A stretch of DNA of 51,815 nucleotides from Myxococcales bacterium (lineage in GTDB: Bacteria; Myxococcota_A; Polyangia; Fen-1088), in the NCBI GenBank assembly GCA_003153015.1, contig PMBS01000358.1, forward strand, positions 1 through 51,815, written 5' to 3'. The first letter of the stretch is position 1. Each line of letters starts with the position of its first letter. This document shows positions 5,947-37,805 of this stretch, piece after piece. A model generated the notes under the pieces. The model did no database searches. It had not been told where the DNA came from and was given only the letters and a program-made list of their open reading frames with translations. The position numbers and the translations under genes are program-made.

Positions 5947-7350
5947 ATGACCATCGCCTCTCCCGCGCCCACGAATTCGCCCGACCCTGCGTCGGTTCGA
6001 CGTGCGGTAGCGTTCGTGGTCAACTTGGGCGCCTTCCTGAGCCCGTTCATGGCGGCCTCGCTGAATCTGGGGTTGCCCGCCATGGGACGGGATCTGCACA
6101 TGGGCGCCACCACCCTGAGCTGGGTGGCCGGCGCCTTTCTGTTGAGTGCCGCGGTCTTCACCGTGCCTTTCGGCCGCATCGCCGATATCTACGGCCGTCG
6201 GCGCATCCTGCTCTACGGCAACGCTTTGTTCGCCCTGTTTTCCCTGCTTGCTGCCTTTGCGCCCTCGGCGACCGTGATGCTGGTCTTGCGGGTTCTGCAG
6301 GGCGTGGCTGGCGCCATGCTCATCTCGACCGGCACAGCCATCTTGACCTCGGTGTTTCCCCCCGGCGATCGCGGACGCATTCTGGGCCGGAACGTCACCG
6401 CAGTCTATCTGGGGCTGGCGCTGGGGCCATTCGCCGGCGGGTTTCTCACCCAACACTTCGGCTGGCGCAGCGTCTTTCTGGTCAACTCTTTGCTCGGGCT
6501 GGTGCTGGTCGCAACCATGCTGGCGAAGCTGCACGACGAATGGGCCGAGGCACGCGGCGAGGTTTTTGACAGCGCCGGCGCCCTCATCTACGGCACCACG
6601 CTGGTGGCCTTGATGTACGGGTTCTCGCGCCTCTCGAGTACGACCGGCTTCTGGCTTCTGCCCCTCGGCCTGCTCGGGCTGGGCGTGTTCATCGCCTGGG
6701 AGATGCGCAGCCGGAGCCCGGTCCTCGACGTGTCGCTCTTCCGCGCCAACCCGGTGTTTGCTTTCTCGAGCCTGGCGGCGCTCATCCACTACTGCGCGAC
6801 GTTCGCGGTGACCTTCCTCCTCAGCCTCTATCTGCAGTCAATCCGGGGCCTCTCGCCGCAACAGGCGGGCCTGCTGCTGGTGGCCCAGCCGGTGATGATG
6901 GCCCTCTTCTCCCCCCTGGCGGGCCGGCTTTCGGACCGCATCGAGCCGCGCGTGCTGGCCTCGATCGGCATGGGCGTGACCGCGGTAGGGGTATTCCTGC
7001 TGTCCTTTCTGCGCGCTGGGACGCCCACCCCCCTGGTGGTCGCCGACTTGGTCCTGCTCGGTATCGGATTCGCGTTCTTCTCGTCGCCCAACACCAACGC
7101 AGTAATGAGCGCACTCGACAAGCGCCACCTGGGCGTGGGCTCCGGCATCCTCGGCACCATGCGCCTGCTCGGCCAGAACCTGAGCATGGGCATGGTGATG
7201 ATGATCCTCGCGCTGCACCTGGGCTCACGCCCGCTCGGCTCCGATATGCAGGTCCCGTTTCTGCGCAGCCTGCACCTCATTTTCCAGATCTTCTCGCTCC
7301 TGGGCGTGGCCGGCGTGTTTGCCTCACTGGCACGCGGGCGTATGCACTAG
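5947..7350 (+). CDS. MFS drug/proton antiporter (DHA2-like)
   Basis: This is a 467-residue inner-membrane major facilitator with about 12-14 hydrophobic segments. The conserved loop GRIADIYGRRRILLYGN sits between segments 2 and 3 (MFS motif A), and ILGRNVTAVYLGLALGPFAGG resembles antiporter motif C (G-P-x-x-G). This places it with DHA2-type multidrug exporters. The frame opens at 5788, but the first 53 residues are read from a degraded gene on the other strand and look unlike an MFS N-terminus, so I start at the ATG at 5947. No strong ribosome binding site is visible. Its stop overlaps the stop of the convergent gene by two bases. Substrate unknown. Confidence 0.9.
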   Translation: MTIASPAPTNSPDPASVRRAVAFVVNLGAFLSPFMAASLNLGLPAMGRDLHMGATTLSWVAGAFLLSAAVFTVPFGRIADIYGRRRILLYGNALFALFSLLAAFAPSATVMLVLRVLQGVAGAMLISTGTAILTSVFPPGDRGRILGRNVTAVYLGLALGPFAGGFLTQHFGWRSVFLVNSLLGLVLVATMLAKLHDEWAEARGEVFDSAGALIYGTTLVALMYGFSRLSSTTGFWLLPLGLLGLGVFIAWEMRSRSPVLDVSLFRANPVFAFSSLAALIHYCATFAVTFLLSLYLQSIRGLSPQQAGLLLVAQPVMMALFSPLAGRLSDRIEPRVLASIGMGVTAVGVFLLSFLRAGTPTPLVVADLVLLGIGFAFFSSPNTNAVMSALDKRHLGVGSGILGTMRLLGQNLSMGMVMMILALHLGSRPLGSDMQVPFLRSLHLIFQIFSLLGVAGVFASLARGRMH

Positions 7351-9503
7351 CGTGAATCTTCCTGTATCGATGGCATATCCTGGGATTCGGCCAGGGCCGC
7401 AAGGTTGCGCCGCGCCTGGGGATAGTCGGGTCTATACCGGAGCGCCAGACCATAGTGCTCGCGGGCCTCATCTATACGGCCCAGCCGCCGCAGGACCGTC
7501 CCCAGATTGTTGTGGGCTTCCGGATACTCGGGCCGGTATTTCAATGCCCCTTGGTATGCGGCGACGGCCTGCAACAAGTCCCCGGTCTGCGCATATGCGT
7601 TCCCCAGGCTGTGGTACGCGACGGCATCATCCGGTTTGATCATGATCACTCGCCGGTACTCGCCAATCGCATCGGTCAGTCGTCCCGCTCGTCGCAGTGC
7701 CACAGCATAGTTGCCATGCGCCTCCGCAGATTCGGGCTCCAATCGCGCTGCCGCTGCAAAATGTTCGACGGCCACTTCCATCCGTCCGGCTTTCGAATAG
7801 GCGTAGCCGAGGTTGTTGTGTGCTTTCGCGTCCCGAGGGTCGACACGTAAGACAGTTTCAAGCTGCTCGATCGCTTCGGCAACCCGTCCAGTACTTAGCA
7901 GAGCAATCCCCAGGCTGCGAGCCGCATCAGAATCATCTGGCTGCAGCTTGAGCGCCTCTTGGTATAGTGGAATAGCAGTCTCACCGTGCCCTGACTGCAC
8001 CAGCGCGTCTCCCTTCCCTCTGAGGGCCTTGAAGTAGGCTGGGGTGATGCGCAAAGCTTGATCGAACAGCTCGACTGCCGCAGGCGCCTGACCCATCTTC
8101 AAGAGAGACTCGGCCTTGTTGTAGTAGGCCATTGCGTAATCTGGTTTCAATTGCAGAGCCTTGTCGTAGCTCGCAAGCGCTTCTGACGTCCTTCCCGCGC
8201 TGTCAAGGGCATTCCCCAGGTGGTTGTGGGCCCGCTCATTCTCCGGACGTTTGGCAATGGTATCGCCCCAAAGGCTAACCGCGCTTCGGTAGACGTCATT
8301 GCGCCGCACGGTACCCCAGCCAAGCAACGATGCCACAACCACCATCACCGCAAGCCCCACATTCTTGTTGGCCTTGGCGAAGAGTCCGACTGCCGCGAGG
8401 GCAACCACGGGGATCAATGGCAAGTACATTCGATGCTCCGCCATGGTTTGCGTGGTCAGCGGAACAACGCTGGAGCTCGGCGCGAGGATTCCCAAAAACC
8501 AACAGCCTGCAAATCCCAACCTGGGCTGACGAACTGTCGCGTACACCGTGGCCCCCAACAGCGCCAGCACAATGCATGCCTGAGGCCATACCGCGGTGAA
8601 GTCCCGAACCACCGTCCTGCCGTAGTCGAATACCAACCCCTGCGGCCAGACTGCCAGGCTGAGGTAGCGAACCATGGCGTAGCACTGGGTCAGAGCATAG
8701 GCCCACCACGCCACCCCATGCCCGAACCCAACGGTTCCGTTTCGATCGCTGCTCAGGAAGACAAGCAGGCCCAGCAGTACCCAGGTTGCCGACAGGCCAA
8801 CATACAGTGGCCACCGTTGCATCAACGACTTCCTGAAGGAACCTGAAAGGAATGCCCGGTCGTAGAGCAACACCATGACCGGTGCCGTGGCCATGACCTC
8901 TTTGCTTGCCATGCCGAGAAAACAGGCTGCGATGGCACAGCCGTACCAGAAGACCTTTCTGGTCGAGTTGGATGAACGGAGGACGGCGTAGAGGGTGGCG
9001 AGATAGAAGAAACCGACGATCAACTCGCCGCGCTGGATCACAGAGGTTACTGACTCGGTGAGGAGCGGGTGAACGGTCCAGAGCAGGGTTATCGCGAGTG
9101 CAATGTGCCGCGCTTTGTCTGCAAACCGTTTTCGCAACGATGGCAGCCGCAGGGTTCGTAGCACCAGGCTGAAAAGCACCAACGCAGCCGCGACATGAAG
9201 GAGGAAATTGACGACATGGTATCCCGTGACGCTGGTGCCGCCCAAGGCATAGTTGACTGCCAGGGACAGGTTGACCATTGGCCTTCCGACCGCCCCAGCC
9301 GAGTCGAGCGGCGGAGTCATGGCCCGGGTGATGGGCCACAGGTGCCTGATGGATGGATTGTCGACGATTGCCGGGATGTCGTCGAACACAAAAGGACCGG
9401 AAAAACTATTGTGATAGGCGACGAAGGCCGCGCAGATGATGACAAGGAGACAAGACCACACTGCCAGGGGCGACTCACGAACCAGAGCTTGTGGTTCTGC
9501 CAT
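7347..9503 (-). CDS. TMTC-like membrane glycosyltransferase with TPR repeats
   Basis: A large inner-membrane protein. The N-terminal half has about 10-12 membrane segments. The first periplasmic loop contains FVFDDIPAI, an Asp-Asp motif typical of GT-C glycosyltransferases, and a late loop contains QTMAEHRMYLPLI, a hallmark of the TMTC/DUF1736 family. The C-terminal half (from about residue 420) has eight to nine TPR repeats of the form A-x-x-x-L-G-x-A-x-x-x-x-G. Eukaryotic TMTC proteins O-mannosylate targets; bacterial relatives are uncharacterised. I chose the ATG at 9503, just before the first hydrophobic segment; 9563 is an alternative. The frame runs to 9827, but that part crosses a repeat element and another gene. 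Confidence 0.85.
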   Translation of the reverse strand: MAEPQALVRESPLAVWSCLLVIICAAFVAYHNSFSGPFVFDDIPAIVDNPSIRHLWPITRAMTPPLDSAGAVGRPMVNLSLAVNYALGGTSVTGYHVVNFLLHVAAALVLFSLVLRTLRLPSLRKRFADKARHIALAITLLWTVHPLLTESVTSVIQRGELIVGFFYLATLYAVLRSSNSTRKVFWYGCAIAACFLGMASKEVMATAPVMVLLYDRAFLSGSFRKSLMQRWPLYVGLSATWVLLGLLVFLSSDRNGTVGFGHGVAWWAYALTQCYAMVRYLSLAVWPQGLVFDYGRTVVRDFTAVWPQACIVLALLGATVYATVRQPRLGFAGCWFLGILAPSSSVVPLTTQTMAEHRMYLPLIPVVALAAVGLFAKANKNVGLAVMVVVASLLGWGTVRRNDVYRSAVSLWGDTIAKRPENERAHNHLGNALDSAGRTSEALASYDKALQLKPDYAMAYYNKAESLLKMGQAPAAVELFDQALRITPAYFKALRGKGDALVQSGHGETAIPLYQEALKLQPDDSDAARSLGIALLSTGRVAEAIEQLETVLRVDPRDAKAHNNLGYAYSKAGRMEVAVEHFAAAARLEPESAEAHGNYAVALRRAGRLTDAIGEYRRVIMIKPDDAVAYHSLGNAYAQTGDLLQAVAAYQGALKYRPEYPEAHNNLGTVLRRLGRIDEAREHYGLALRYRPDYPQARRNLAALAESQDMPSIQEDSR

Positions 9504-9599
9504 CGGCGCGTGGCTGGGATGTGCCTTGTTGAACACCACTTCTGCTGTGGTCGATCCAAGCATGTACCACCGAGGAAGGGAAGTTCTTCCTCCGTAGTT

Positions 9600-9625
9600 C
9601 CGCGATAGCCGCAGAAGGTCGTGGC
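9600..9625 (-). repeat. 26-bp dispersed element, copy A
   Basis: Read on the minus strand it begins GCCACGACCTTCTGCGGCTA and ends TCGCGG. It is identical over 26 bases to copy B (27872-27897) and matches copy C (36815-36840) at 24 of 26. It lies about 36 bases before the ATG at 9563 and 96 before that at 9503 of the TMTC-like gene. CTGCG-GCTAT-CGCGG can form a small stem with one U-G pair. The similarity to copy C extends upstream through GTCTAC. Confidence 0.7.
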
Positions 9626-9696
9626 CGTAGACATCGTCGTGGCCATGGCCGGAGTGATCGCCGTCGGCGGTCGGTGAATCGAAGAACGCAGTAGGG

Positions 9697-27732: not shown

Positions 27733-27871
27733 GTGGTGGCGTCGCGAACTGCAAAGACGCGCCACATGATAGCCCGAGAAACCGAGTTTTCACCAAGGGG
27801 AATCGATGGGCAAACCGCGCCAGGTGTGCGCCAGCGCACAGGACAGTTTGATGGCCGCAGCCGCGCGCCCG

Positions 27872-27897
27872 GCCACGACCTTCTGCGGCTATCGCGG
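27872..27897 (+). repeat. 26-bp dispersed element, copy B
   Basis: Identical over 26 bases to copy A (9600-9625, opposite strand). It lies 80 bases upstream of the GPH symporter start. In this copy the same strand also has CCGCAG (27855-27860) just upstream, which could pair with CTGCGG inside the element. See the finding for the shared structure. Confidence 0.7.
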
Positions 27898-27977
27898 GAC
27901 TTGGGGGCTAGCGCGGGGATTGCTTGCGCGAACCAGGTTTGGTCTACTGGGCCCCCCTGTACCGGGAGGAGCGACGA

Positions 27978-29402
27978 ATGTCTATGACACCTGCGACCGC
28001 GGAAAGTGAAAAGCTCTCGTTCAAAGAGAAGTTCGGCTACGCCCTAGGCGACACGGCTTCCAACCTGTTCTGGATGACGTTCGTGTACTTCGGCACCTAC
28101 TTCTACACGGACGTGTTTGGGCTGGCGCCAGCGGCGATGGCCACCCTGTTCTTCGTGACCCGCATCTTGGACACAGTTTTCGATCCGGTGATGGGGATGC
28201 TGGCGGATCGGACCAACACGCGCTGGGGGAAGTTTCGGCCCTACCTCTTGTGGATGGTAGTGCCCTTTGGCGTGTGCGGCTCGCTGGCTTTCATCACGCC
28301 GCCCTTTGGCGCGGGCGGGAAGCTGGTCTGGGCCTATGTGACCTACGGACTCATCGGCCTGGTCTACAGTGCCATCAACCTGCCCTACTCGGCCATGCTG
28401 GGTGTCATCTCACCCAGCAGCGTGGAACGCACCAAGGCTTCCTCGTTCCGCTTCGTGGGCGCCTACTCCGCCGGTCTGGTGGTCAGCCTTTGCACCATGT
28501 ACCTGGTCGACTTCTTCGGCGGCCCGAGCAAGCAGACTGGCTTTGCCCTGACTGTCGGCCTGTACGCCCTGCTCGGCATGGTGATGTGGATTGTGTGCTT
28601 CGCCACCACGAAAGAGCGGGTCAAGCCCCCGGCGGGACAAGCGTCGTCGTTTCTGCGCGATCTCGGCGACGTGGTGACCAACGTGCCCTGGCTGGTGCTC
28701 TTCGTGCTCGGCATCGCCACCCTCAGCTACGTGTCCATCCGCAACGGGTGTTTCACCTATTACTTCAAGTACTACGTGGGCCAACAGACCGTCCTGGGCA
28801 TGAATCTGACAGCGAACGACATGCTGGGCGCTTTCCTGGTGGTGGGATCGCTAGCCACCCTGTTTGGGACATCCCTGGTTGCGCCGGTCGCCCAGCGCAT
28901 CGGCAAGAAGCCCCTGTACATGATCATGATGGGGATCTCGTCGGTGCTCACCATCTCGTTCTATTTCCTGCGGCCGCAGGACGTGATCGCGATGTTCGTG
29001 CTGCAGATTCTGGCCAACCTCATCATGGGCCCGACCGCGGCGCTGGTCTACGCCATGTACGCGGATGCGTCCGACTACTCGGAATGGAAGACCGGTCGCC
29101 GATCGACCGGTCTGGTGTTCGCGGCTTCGTCGTTCGCGCAAAAGATGGGCTGGACCGTGGGCGGCACGGTCACCGGTCTGATTTTGGCCGGATTCGGCTA
29201 TCAGGCCGAAATCAAGCAGACCGCCGAGACCCTGACCGGGCTCAAGCTACTGGTCAGTTTCATTCCCGCGGTGGGCAGCCTGCTGGCCACAATCCTGCCG
29301 CTGTTCTATTCGCTGAACGACAAGCGCATGAAGCAGATCGAGAAGGAACTGGCCGAACGGCGGGCTGGCCTGGCCGCGTCGACGATCCAGCAACCGAGCT
29401 AA
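27978..29402 (+). CDS. GPH-family sugar:cation symporter
   Basis: A 474-residue inner-membrane transporter of the glycoside-pentoside-hexuronide:cation family (MelB-like). It has about 12 hydrophobic segments, the N-terminal FGYALGDTASNLFWM, and the loops DPVMGMLADRTNTRWGKFRPYL and YADASDYSEWKTGRRSTG, both conserved in GPH proteins. Start at 27978 has GGGAGGAG 7 bases upstream; the frame opens at 27924 without support. The GH94 phosphorylase gene begins 13 bases after its stop, so it probably imports the disaccharide that the phosphorylase cleaves. Confidence 0.93.
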   Translation: MSMTPATAESEKLSFKEKFGYALGDTASNLFWMTFVYFGTYFYTDVFGLAPAAMATLFFVTRILDTVFDPVMGMLADRTNTRWGKFRPYLLWMVVPFGVCGSLAFITPPFGAGGKLVWAYVTYGLIGLVYSAINLPYSAMLGVISPSSVERTKASSFRFVGAYSAGLVVSLCTMYLVDFFGGPSKQTGFALTVGLYALLGMVMWIVCFATTKERVKPPAGQASSFLRDLGDVVTNVPWLVLFVLGIATLSYVSIRNGCFTYYFKYYVGQQTVLGMNLTANDMLGAFLVVGSLATLFGTSLVAPVAQRIGKKPLYMIMMGISSVLTISFYFLRPQDVIAMFVLQILANLIMGPTAALVYAMYADASDYSEWKTGRRSTGLVFAASSFAQKMGWTVGGTVTGLILAGFGYQAEIKQTAETLTGLKLLVSFIPAVGSLLATILPLFYSLNDKRMKQIEKELAERRAGLAASTIQQPS

Positions 29403-36754: not shown

Positions 36755-36814
36755 GCTGTTCCTCTGGCAAAGTGTCAGAGGAATTGTAGTACTCCGACCA
36801 CGGCTACGTCTACC

Positions 36815-36840
36815 GCCACGACTTTCTGCGGCTATCGCAG
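36815..36840 (+). repeat. 26-bp dispersed element, copy C
   Basis: It begins GCCACGACTTTCTGCGGCTA and ends TCGCAG, differing from copies A and B at two positions. One change turns the stem CTGCG-GCTAT-CGCGG (U-G pair) into the perfect CTGCG-GCTAT-CGCAG. It lies 56 bases before the EamA transporter start. Confidence 0.7.
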
Positions 36841-36896
36841 GGGGCCCCAAACTCTCCTGGTTTCTGGTCGCCCTCTGATCTAACCCTCGACGCGCC

Positions 36897-37805
36897 ATGA
36901 TCGAGTCAAGCAAGCCCTCGCCATCCTCGCGGGGACTCCTGGCGGTCCTCTTCGGGGCAAGTCTGCTCGGGTTTGCAGCCGTCTTCGTGAAGTGGGGGCT
37001 CTTGGGCGGCGCCTCTCCGCTAACCATAGGTCTCTATCGCATGCTCTTCGCACTGCCGGGCGTGTATTGGCTGGTGCGACGTGATGGGAGACTGCGGGTT
37101 GGCAAAGGAGCCGCGTGGGGACTGCTTGCGGGCCTCGCTTTCGCAACCGATTTGAGCCTTTGGCACCGCTCGATGCAGCACACCAGTGCTGCCAACTCGA
37201 CCTTCATCGTCTGTGGTCTCGCGCCAGTGTGGGTCGCGCTGTTTTCCGTAGGCGTCTATCAAACCCGGTATCGCTGGACGGGATGGCTCGGACAGGCGCT
37301 CGGCGTATCTGGGGCATTGGTCTTGGCCTTGGCGCGCGGGGCGCGCGTGGGCACGGGTCGCGGTGAAGTCCTGGCCATGCTGGCGAGCTTCTGCTACGCA
37401 GGCTTCAGTCTGGCCATCTCGCGCAGCAGACAGCGAATCTCAGCGCGCCAGGCACTATTCTGGATGAGCGTTGCCAGCCTGCTCTGCTTCGTCGTGCTAG
37501 AGGCCATCGAGGGTCAACCCCTAACTGGCTATTCCCCGCTCGCTTGGATGAGCCTCGTCGGTCTGGCGTTGGTGGTGCAGCTTTTGGCCTGGCTCATCAT
37601 CAACAGCGGCCTTGGTCACATCAATATCGCTCTCGGCACCCTGGCCCTGGGATTTCAGCAAGTGGTAACGCCATTCCTCGCGGCATGGTTCCTGGACGAG
37701 CCGCTGCGCCCGCTGGGCTTGTTCGGCGGGTTGATCATAGTCGTGGGGATCTGCCTAGTAGCGACCGGTGAGCGCTCACCACCGGCGGTGTCTCCACAAG
37801 TCTGA
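36897..37805 (+). CDS. EamA/DMT-family transporter
   Basis: A 302-residue inner-membrane protein with ten hydrophobic segments arranged as two EamA repeats of five (first from GLLAVLFGASLLGFAAVFVK, second from GEVLAMLASFCYAGFSLAIS). Members export or import amino acids, nucleobases and other metabolites; the substrate is not predictable. The gene's end overlaps the convergent DUF2007-type gene by about 30 bases. Confidence 0.9.
   Translation: MIESSKPSPSSRGLLAVLFGASLLGFAAVFVKWGLLGGASPLTIGLYRMLFALPGVYWLVRRDGRLRVGKGAAWGLLAGLAFATDLSLWHRSMQHTSAANSTFIVCGLAPVWVALFSVGVYQTRYRWTGWLGQALGVSGALVLALARGARVGTGRGEVLAMLASFCYAGFSLAISRSRQRISARQALFWMSVASLLCFVVLEAIEGQPLTGYSPLAWMSLVGLALVVQLLAWLIINSGLGHINIALGTLALGFQQVVTPFLAAWFLDEPLRPLGLFGGLIIVVGICLVATGERSPPAVSPQV

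Follow-up and report, generated by a model that had tools for sequence, protein, structure and literature searches.

Among the closest described systems, QMITE2 of Coxiella burnetii is a MITE of ~190 bp with 78 copies, only ten of them full length; its 5'-truncated copies lack the terminal repeats and resemble REPs, as summarised in a review (PMC10969869). BrickBuilt of Porphyromonas gingivalis is always intergenic (PMC4596501). The repeat described here came to light as a 26-mer in a stretch of 51,815 nucleotides (the window), which is contig C299 of a draft genome of 5.84 Mb. We conclude with considerable confidence that the 26-mer is the right terminus of a non-autonomous, MITE-like element of ~205 bp that has spread intergenically in one genus of uncultured peat Myxococcota.

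The preliminary description of the window had placed three copies of the 26-mer at 9600-9625 (minus strand), 27872-27897 (plus) and 36815-36840 (plus). These copies are real, and each lies 5' of a co-oriented gene (TMTC-like, GPH and EamA, respectively) as had been stated; the 26-mer did not occur in 100 dinucleotide shuffles (0 expected by chance). Homology around them extends further, to ~9592-9668, 27870-27905 and 36791-36842, which gives the following features:

7347-9563, minus strand, gene for a TMTC-like TPR membrane protein, downstream of copy 1 (Pfam TPR families; gene call)
9592-9668, minus strand, right-arm relic of the MITE, GCCGACGGCGATCACTCCGGCC...CTGCGGCTATCGCGGAACTACGG, including the 26-mer at 9600-9625 and with a match to the right half of the consensus of full-length copies
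27870-27905, plus strand, short right-end relic, GGCCACGACCTTCTGCGGCTATCGCGGGACTTGGG, including 27872-27897
27984-29402, plus strand, gene for a GPH/MFS_2 sugar transporter, downstream of copy 2 (PF13347, E 6.6e-95; start at 27979 or 27984)
36791-36842, plus strand, right-arm relic, CTCCGACCACGGCTACGTCTACCGCCACGACTTTCTGCGGCTATCGCAGG, with a decayed extreme right end, including 36815-36840
36897-37805, plus strand, gene for an EamA transporter, downstream of copy 3 (PF00892, E 7.9e-25)

The three copies are merely the window's share of a genome-wide repeat. They are right-arm relics of ~36-77 bp; the left motif of the element was found nowhere in the window, and no left end is within reach of the window copies. 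At the site of copy 1 the element is missing in the sister species G006 while both flanking genes align, and there are orthologs of the TMTC-like gene without the element upstream. The TMTC-like TPR protein is one member of a very large family; each of the seven genomes of the genus has 36-55 matches to it. G002, G004 and probably G006 retain copy 2 at the orthologous position in decayed form, and copy 3 is present at the same site in G006 and was not detected at the G002 site. The window copies can be understood as old relics just upstream of pre-existing promoters, and as such need have no function.

When the repeat cores were read outwards, the 26-mer appeared as the right terminal segment of an element of ~205 bp bounded by terminal inverted repeats of 14-19 bp (CCNYARTCCCGCG...CGCGGGATTRNGG). 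The complete element opens with the left end CCNYARTCCCGCGACAAGCGGAGCG, followed by the conserved segment CCTTTCCATGATCAAGCCGCGCACCCAATCGG and a left arm (GTGGTC/GTGGCC)n; the centre GACGGTGATCACTCC (also given as GTGATCAC) leads into the right arm (GGCCAC/GACCAC)n, and ACGACCTTCTGCGGCTATCGCGGGATTRNGG forms the right end. The complementary hexamer repeats (GTGGCC)n and (GGCCAC)n build a long internal hairpin, and as single-stranded DNA the element is predicted to fold as one long hairpin (z = -6.5). Its length ranges from ~68 to 223 bp, with the shorter forms of 68-113 bp retaining both ends; complete copies of ~205 bp make up 17 of 76 in the host genome. The element leaves no room for a transposase, and on inspection a short internal frame starting from ATGATCAAG has no conserved start or reading frame across copies. 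Full-length copies (e.g., L142 and L137) contain an open frame MIKPRTQSERSVVVVDVVLVVFVAVADGDHSGHGHDH... that would encode a hydrophobic run with a His-rich tail; it arises from the in-frame complementary hexamers and is probably spurious, since some copies keep neither its start codon nor its frame intact. Minimal palindromes made of only the two terminal repeats, ~30-45 bp long, were also seen, such as L368 at ~1044-1090 (contig C7 of G004; CCGTAATCCCGCGGC...GCCGCGGGATTACGG) and L386 at ~904-935 (CCCTGATCCCGCG-ACTTGG-CGCGGGATCAGGG). At G000:C267:30850-31200 three elements are clustered in mixed orientation, namely a full copy with a 6-bp duplication, an inverted mini-copy of 70 bp and a further right end.

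Exact target duplications stand on either side of complete copies far more often than expected by chance. Among 35 flank records, which include a few overlapping or reverse readings of one copy, there were nine five-base and three six-base matches versus ~0.3 expected, and in a second test 13 of 33 full copies had a duplication (0.7 expected), a number reached in no shuffle. The duplications comprise GGTCA, ACACA, TTGCA, AGGCA, GGAAA, TCTGG, ACCAA and GCGCG (5 bp) and CTCACC, GGAGAT and CGTGCC (6 bp). For 20 insertion-bearing host loci the orthologous genes were located in four sister species. By our own counting, the element was absent from 47 and present in six of 53 syntenic comparisons with conserved upstream sequence, and the alignments at element-free sites show the promoter and the flanking genes to be conserved. 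Target duplications together with mostly empty orthologous sites point to a MITE-like mobile element; dispersal, terminal repeats, duplications and presence or absence at orthologous sites are all direct observations. A transposase supplied in trans would presumably cut the element ends, and insertion would occur at a staggered cut of 5, sometimes 6, bp.

The placement of the copies is non-random. According to gene calls made with a simple codon-usage gene finder of our own, nearly all copies are intergenic, with only 4 of 136 lying inside genes. Of 128 copies, 92 have a co-oriented gene next to their right end (p = 8e-7); for the gene next to the left end the corresponding figure is 65 of 126 (p = 0.79). 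Where the element sits between tandem genes, it shares their direction in 49 of 68 cases (p = 0.0004). Among the 92 co-oriented copies, 44 have their right end 35-75 bp upstream of the start codon, and visual inspection often places this end directly 5' of a -35/-10 pair; where the neighbouring gene is convergent, the right end lies 0-8 bp from the stop codon in 13 of 36 copies. At aligned sites the promoter next to the right end also exists without the element. Such a bias in orientation and promoter abutment is not standard for a MITE and counts against that reading.

Co-orientation and clustering before start codons speak for a cis-regulatory DNA or RNA element of membrane-protein genes (an operator, a leader structure or a leader peptide), the direction in which the preliminary description had pointed. 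Genes with at least three predicted transmembrane segments are indeed more frequent downstream of the repeat (18/73) than among other genes (58/560; p = 0.0016). However, the frequency at right ends does not differ significantly from that at left ends (8/46; p = 0.37), so that the membrane association is at most a weak trend; inspection of the sequences showed many downstream genes to be housekeeping genes. Thus, the tendency to lie upstream of co-oriented genes stands, and a specificity for membrane proteins does not. Nor did the suggested RNA stem hold up in the 129 distinct copies: pairing amounted to 88.4% versus 88.7% in shuffles, with one double change versus 2.2 expected, and the U-G to U-A change that had been taken as a hint of structure is one among several single-sided changes. 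A search of Rfam at the gathering threshold and at E 0.1 gave no match. The peptide ATTFCGYR, which the copies had been said to allow, shows no constraint either: in its frame, variation peaks at two positions where the changes alter the amino acid (F to S in 51/129, C to R in 24/129), and third positions are nearly invariant. Taken together with the empty sites in sister species, the target duplications, and the decay of the GPH-site copy between species while the neighbouring promoter stays conserved, these data make the regulatory explanation very improbable. The 26-mer is not a switch common to membrane-protein genes and its sequence gives no sign of function, although it may play a role at single loci. 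The preliminary description had named the end of a known transposable element as a finding that would refute its reading; the 26-mer turned out to be such an end, of an element absent from catalogues.

About 70% of all copies, the three of the window among them, are right-arm relics (55 of 76 in the host genome, 42 of 60 in relatives), against about one clear left-only case in the host genome (C295:27885). The right-only copies start near the hairpin centre, are somewhat older on average (mean mismatches 1.96 versus 1.32), and when target duplications were looked for in them, none was found. Simple symmetrical decay fails as an explanation, given the missing duplications and the near absence of a left-only counterpart. 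The right-only copies may be decayed full elements that lost one arm preferentially, or products of one-ended insertion. Moreover, at least three different left halves occur together with the right arm, as in mosaic repeats of other bacteria; one of these combinations contains CAGCCTGACGGCCGCAACCAAAGGGATCACTCC and an additional right part, and another contains CCGTAATCCCGCGGCAAGCGCAGCGACGCCGCGGGGCGCC. A second repeat family of the host genome (L047, L055, L060, L067, L079, L080 and others) shares the hexamer arm but differs in its left half, CACAGAGGACACAGAGCAGCCTGACGGCCGCAACCAAAGGGATCACTCC, and continues on the right with an extra part, CTGCAACTATCGCGACACCGTCGAGAATCTTCGCGGCCCGCGAAG.

It is conceivable that the right arm itself is the mobile unit, inserted directionally alongside promoters and stop codons (one-ended transposition being one conceivable route), and that the 205-bp form is a composite. 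The excess of right-only copies, their start near the hairpin centre, the several partners of the arm and the proximity of right ends to convergent stop codons all favour this proposal, as do inserted right arms of ~50-75 bp opposite empty orthologous sites (L020, L078). By contrast, the lack of target duplications in right-only copies argues against it, and their somewhat greater age leaves room for a secondary loss of the left arm. We regard the proposal as unlikely, though it deserves to be kept in mind, and we are more doubtful still of a polar, boundary-seeking process in which a right-arm unit would be inserted without left arm and without duplication, directionally against promoter cores and gene ends. 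The non-autonomous MITE-like element is our preferred explanation. Its identity accounts for a repeat that resembles a regulatory motif and guards against misannotation as a riboswitch or operator. Some hundred insertions with empty sites in sister species form a natural set for studying whether and how decay or insertion is polarised with respect to promoters.

The prevalence of single right arms over paired forms, the ability of both ends to form short hairpins and the presence of one Y1_Tnp gene in the genome are also compatible with a palindrome of the REP/REPIN type that a RAYT (Y1 tyrosine transposase) mobilises. Yet full copies make target duplications of 5-6 bp, which, to our knowledge, Y1 transposases are not expected to produce; a GTAG/GTGG foot is absent at the 5' side on inspection, and the Y1_Tnp gene (C30:33003), rejected as a partner, has no copy of the repeat within ~4 kb. 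We therefore consider a REP/REPIN origin extremely unlikely. The IS1380 family, with ISEcp1, has terminal repeats that begin with CC, generates 5-6 bp target duplications and is known for one-ended events. The MITE-like element shares the CC at the start of its terminal repeats and the size of the duplications; the difference is that the genome's one IS1380-type gene (C295:56152-57114) has no ends matching the element, and it was discarded as a partner. Candidate pairs of inverted left ends spaced like an IS in relatives (G003 contig 208, G005 contig 71) resolved into small elements unconnected with each other or into single ends. In the draft genomes, the search for Y1_Tnp and PF13701 revealed no autonomous partner with matching ends.

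Counted by a 22-base core, the repeat occurs at 86 places in the host genome with up to 3 mismatches allowed, and the reversed control gave 0. Each of the six other genomes of the genus has 9-16 copies, and copy number is uneven within the genus (58 versus 9-16). Among 97 genomes of the class it was found in all 7 of the genus; beyond these, one further genus of the family has it, and there is a single occurrence outside both. Exact matches in named genomes come exclusively from peat-soil Myxococcales MAGs, except for one record labelled Proteobacteria from Chersky, and a plasmid collection and viral contigs contained no match to the element. Contigs C145 and C150 end in TGTCGGGTAGCCCGGGGC, and C72 and C4 in ACCAGCATTGCCTGGTCGCACCGTGG, the breaks falling inside the repeat. 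Breaks with the same odd end sequence indicate that draft assembly fails at the hairpins, and the true copy number is probably higher.

With less than ~600 bp, terminal inverted repeats, target duplications, no transposase and dispersed polymorphic copies, the element has the features of a MITE; by anatomy it is one, and apparently an undescribed one. A search of a limited literature for MITEs in myxobacteria gave nothing relevant. Like BrickBuilt, it is a MITE with a tandem-repeat core and small inverted-repeat ends; the two differ in the repeat unit, which has 23 bp in BrickBuilt and is a complementary, hairpin-forming 6-bp repeat here, and in copy number (19 versus ~90; PMC4596501). Small palindromic elements that are intergenic and mostly located immediately upstream of genes are also represented by the Correia elements of Neisseria, subtypes of which carry promoters (PMC10969869), whereas the promoters next to the present element are native and already there at empty sites. 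The likeness to QMITE2 is one of anatomy, no sequence relation having been established, and the review passage on QMITE2 reports no orientation towards promoters such as that seen here (PMC10969869). QMITE2 does show that a MITE family can consist mainly of truncated copies that look like REPs (PMC10969869).
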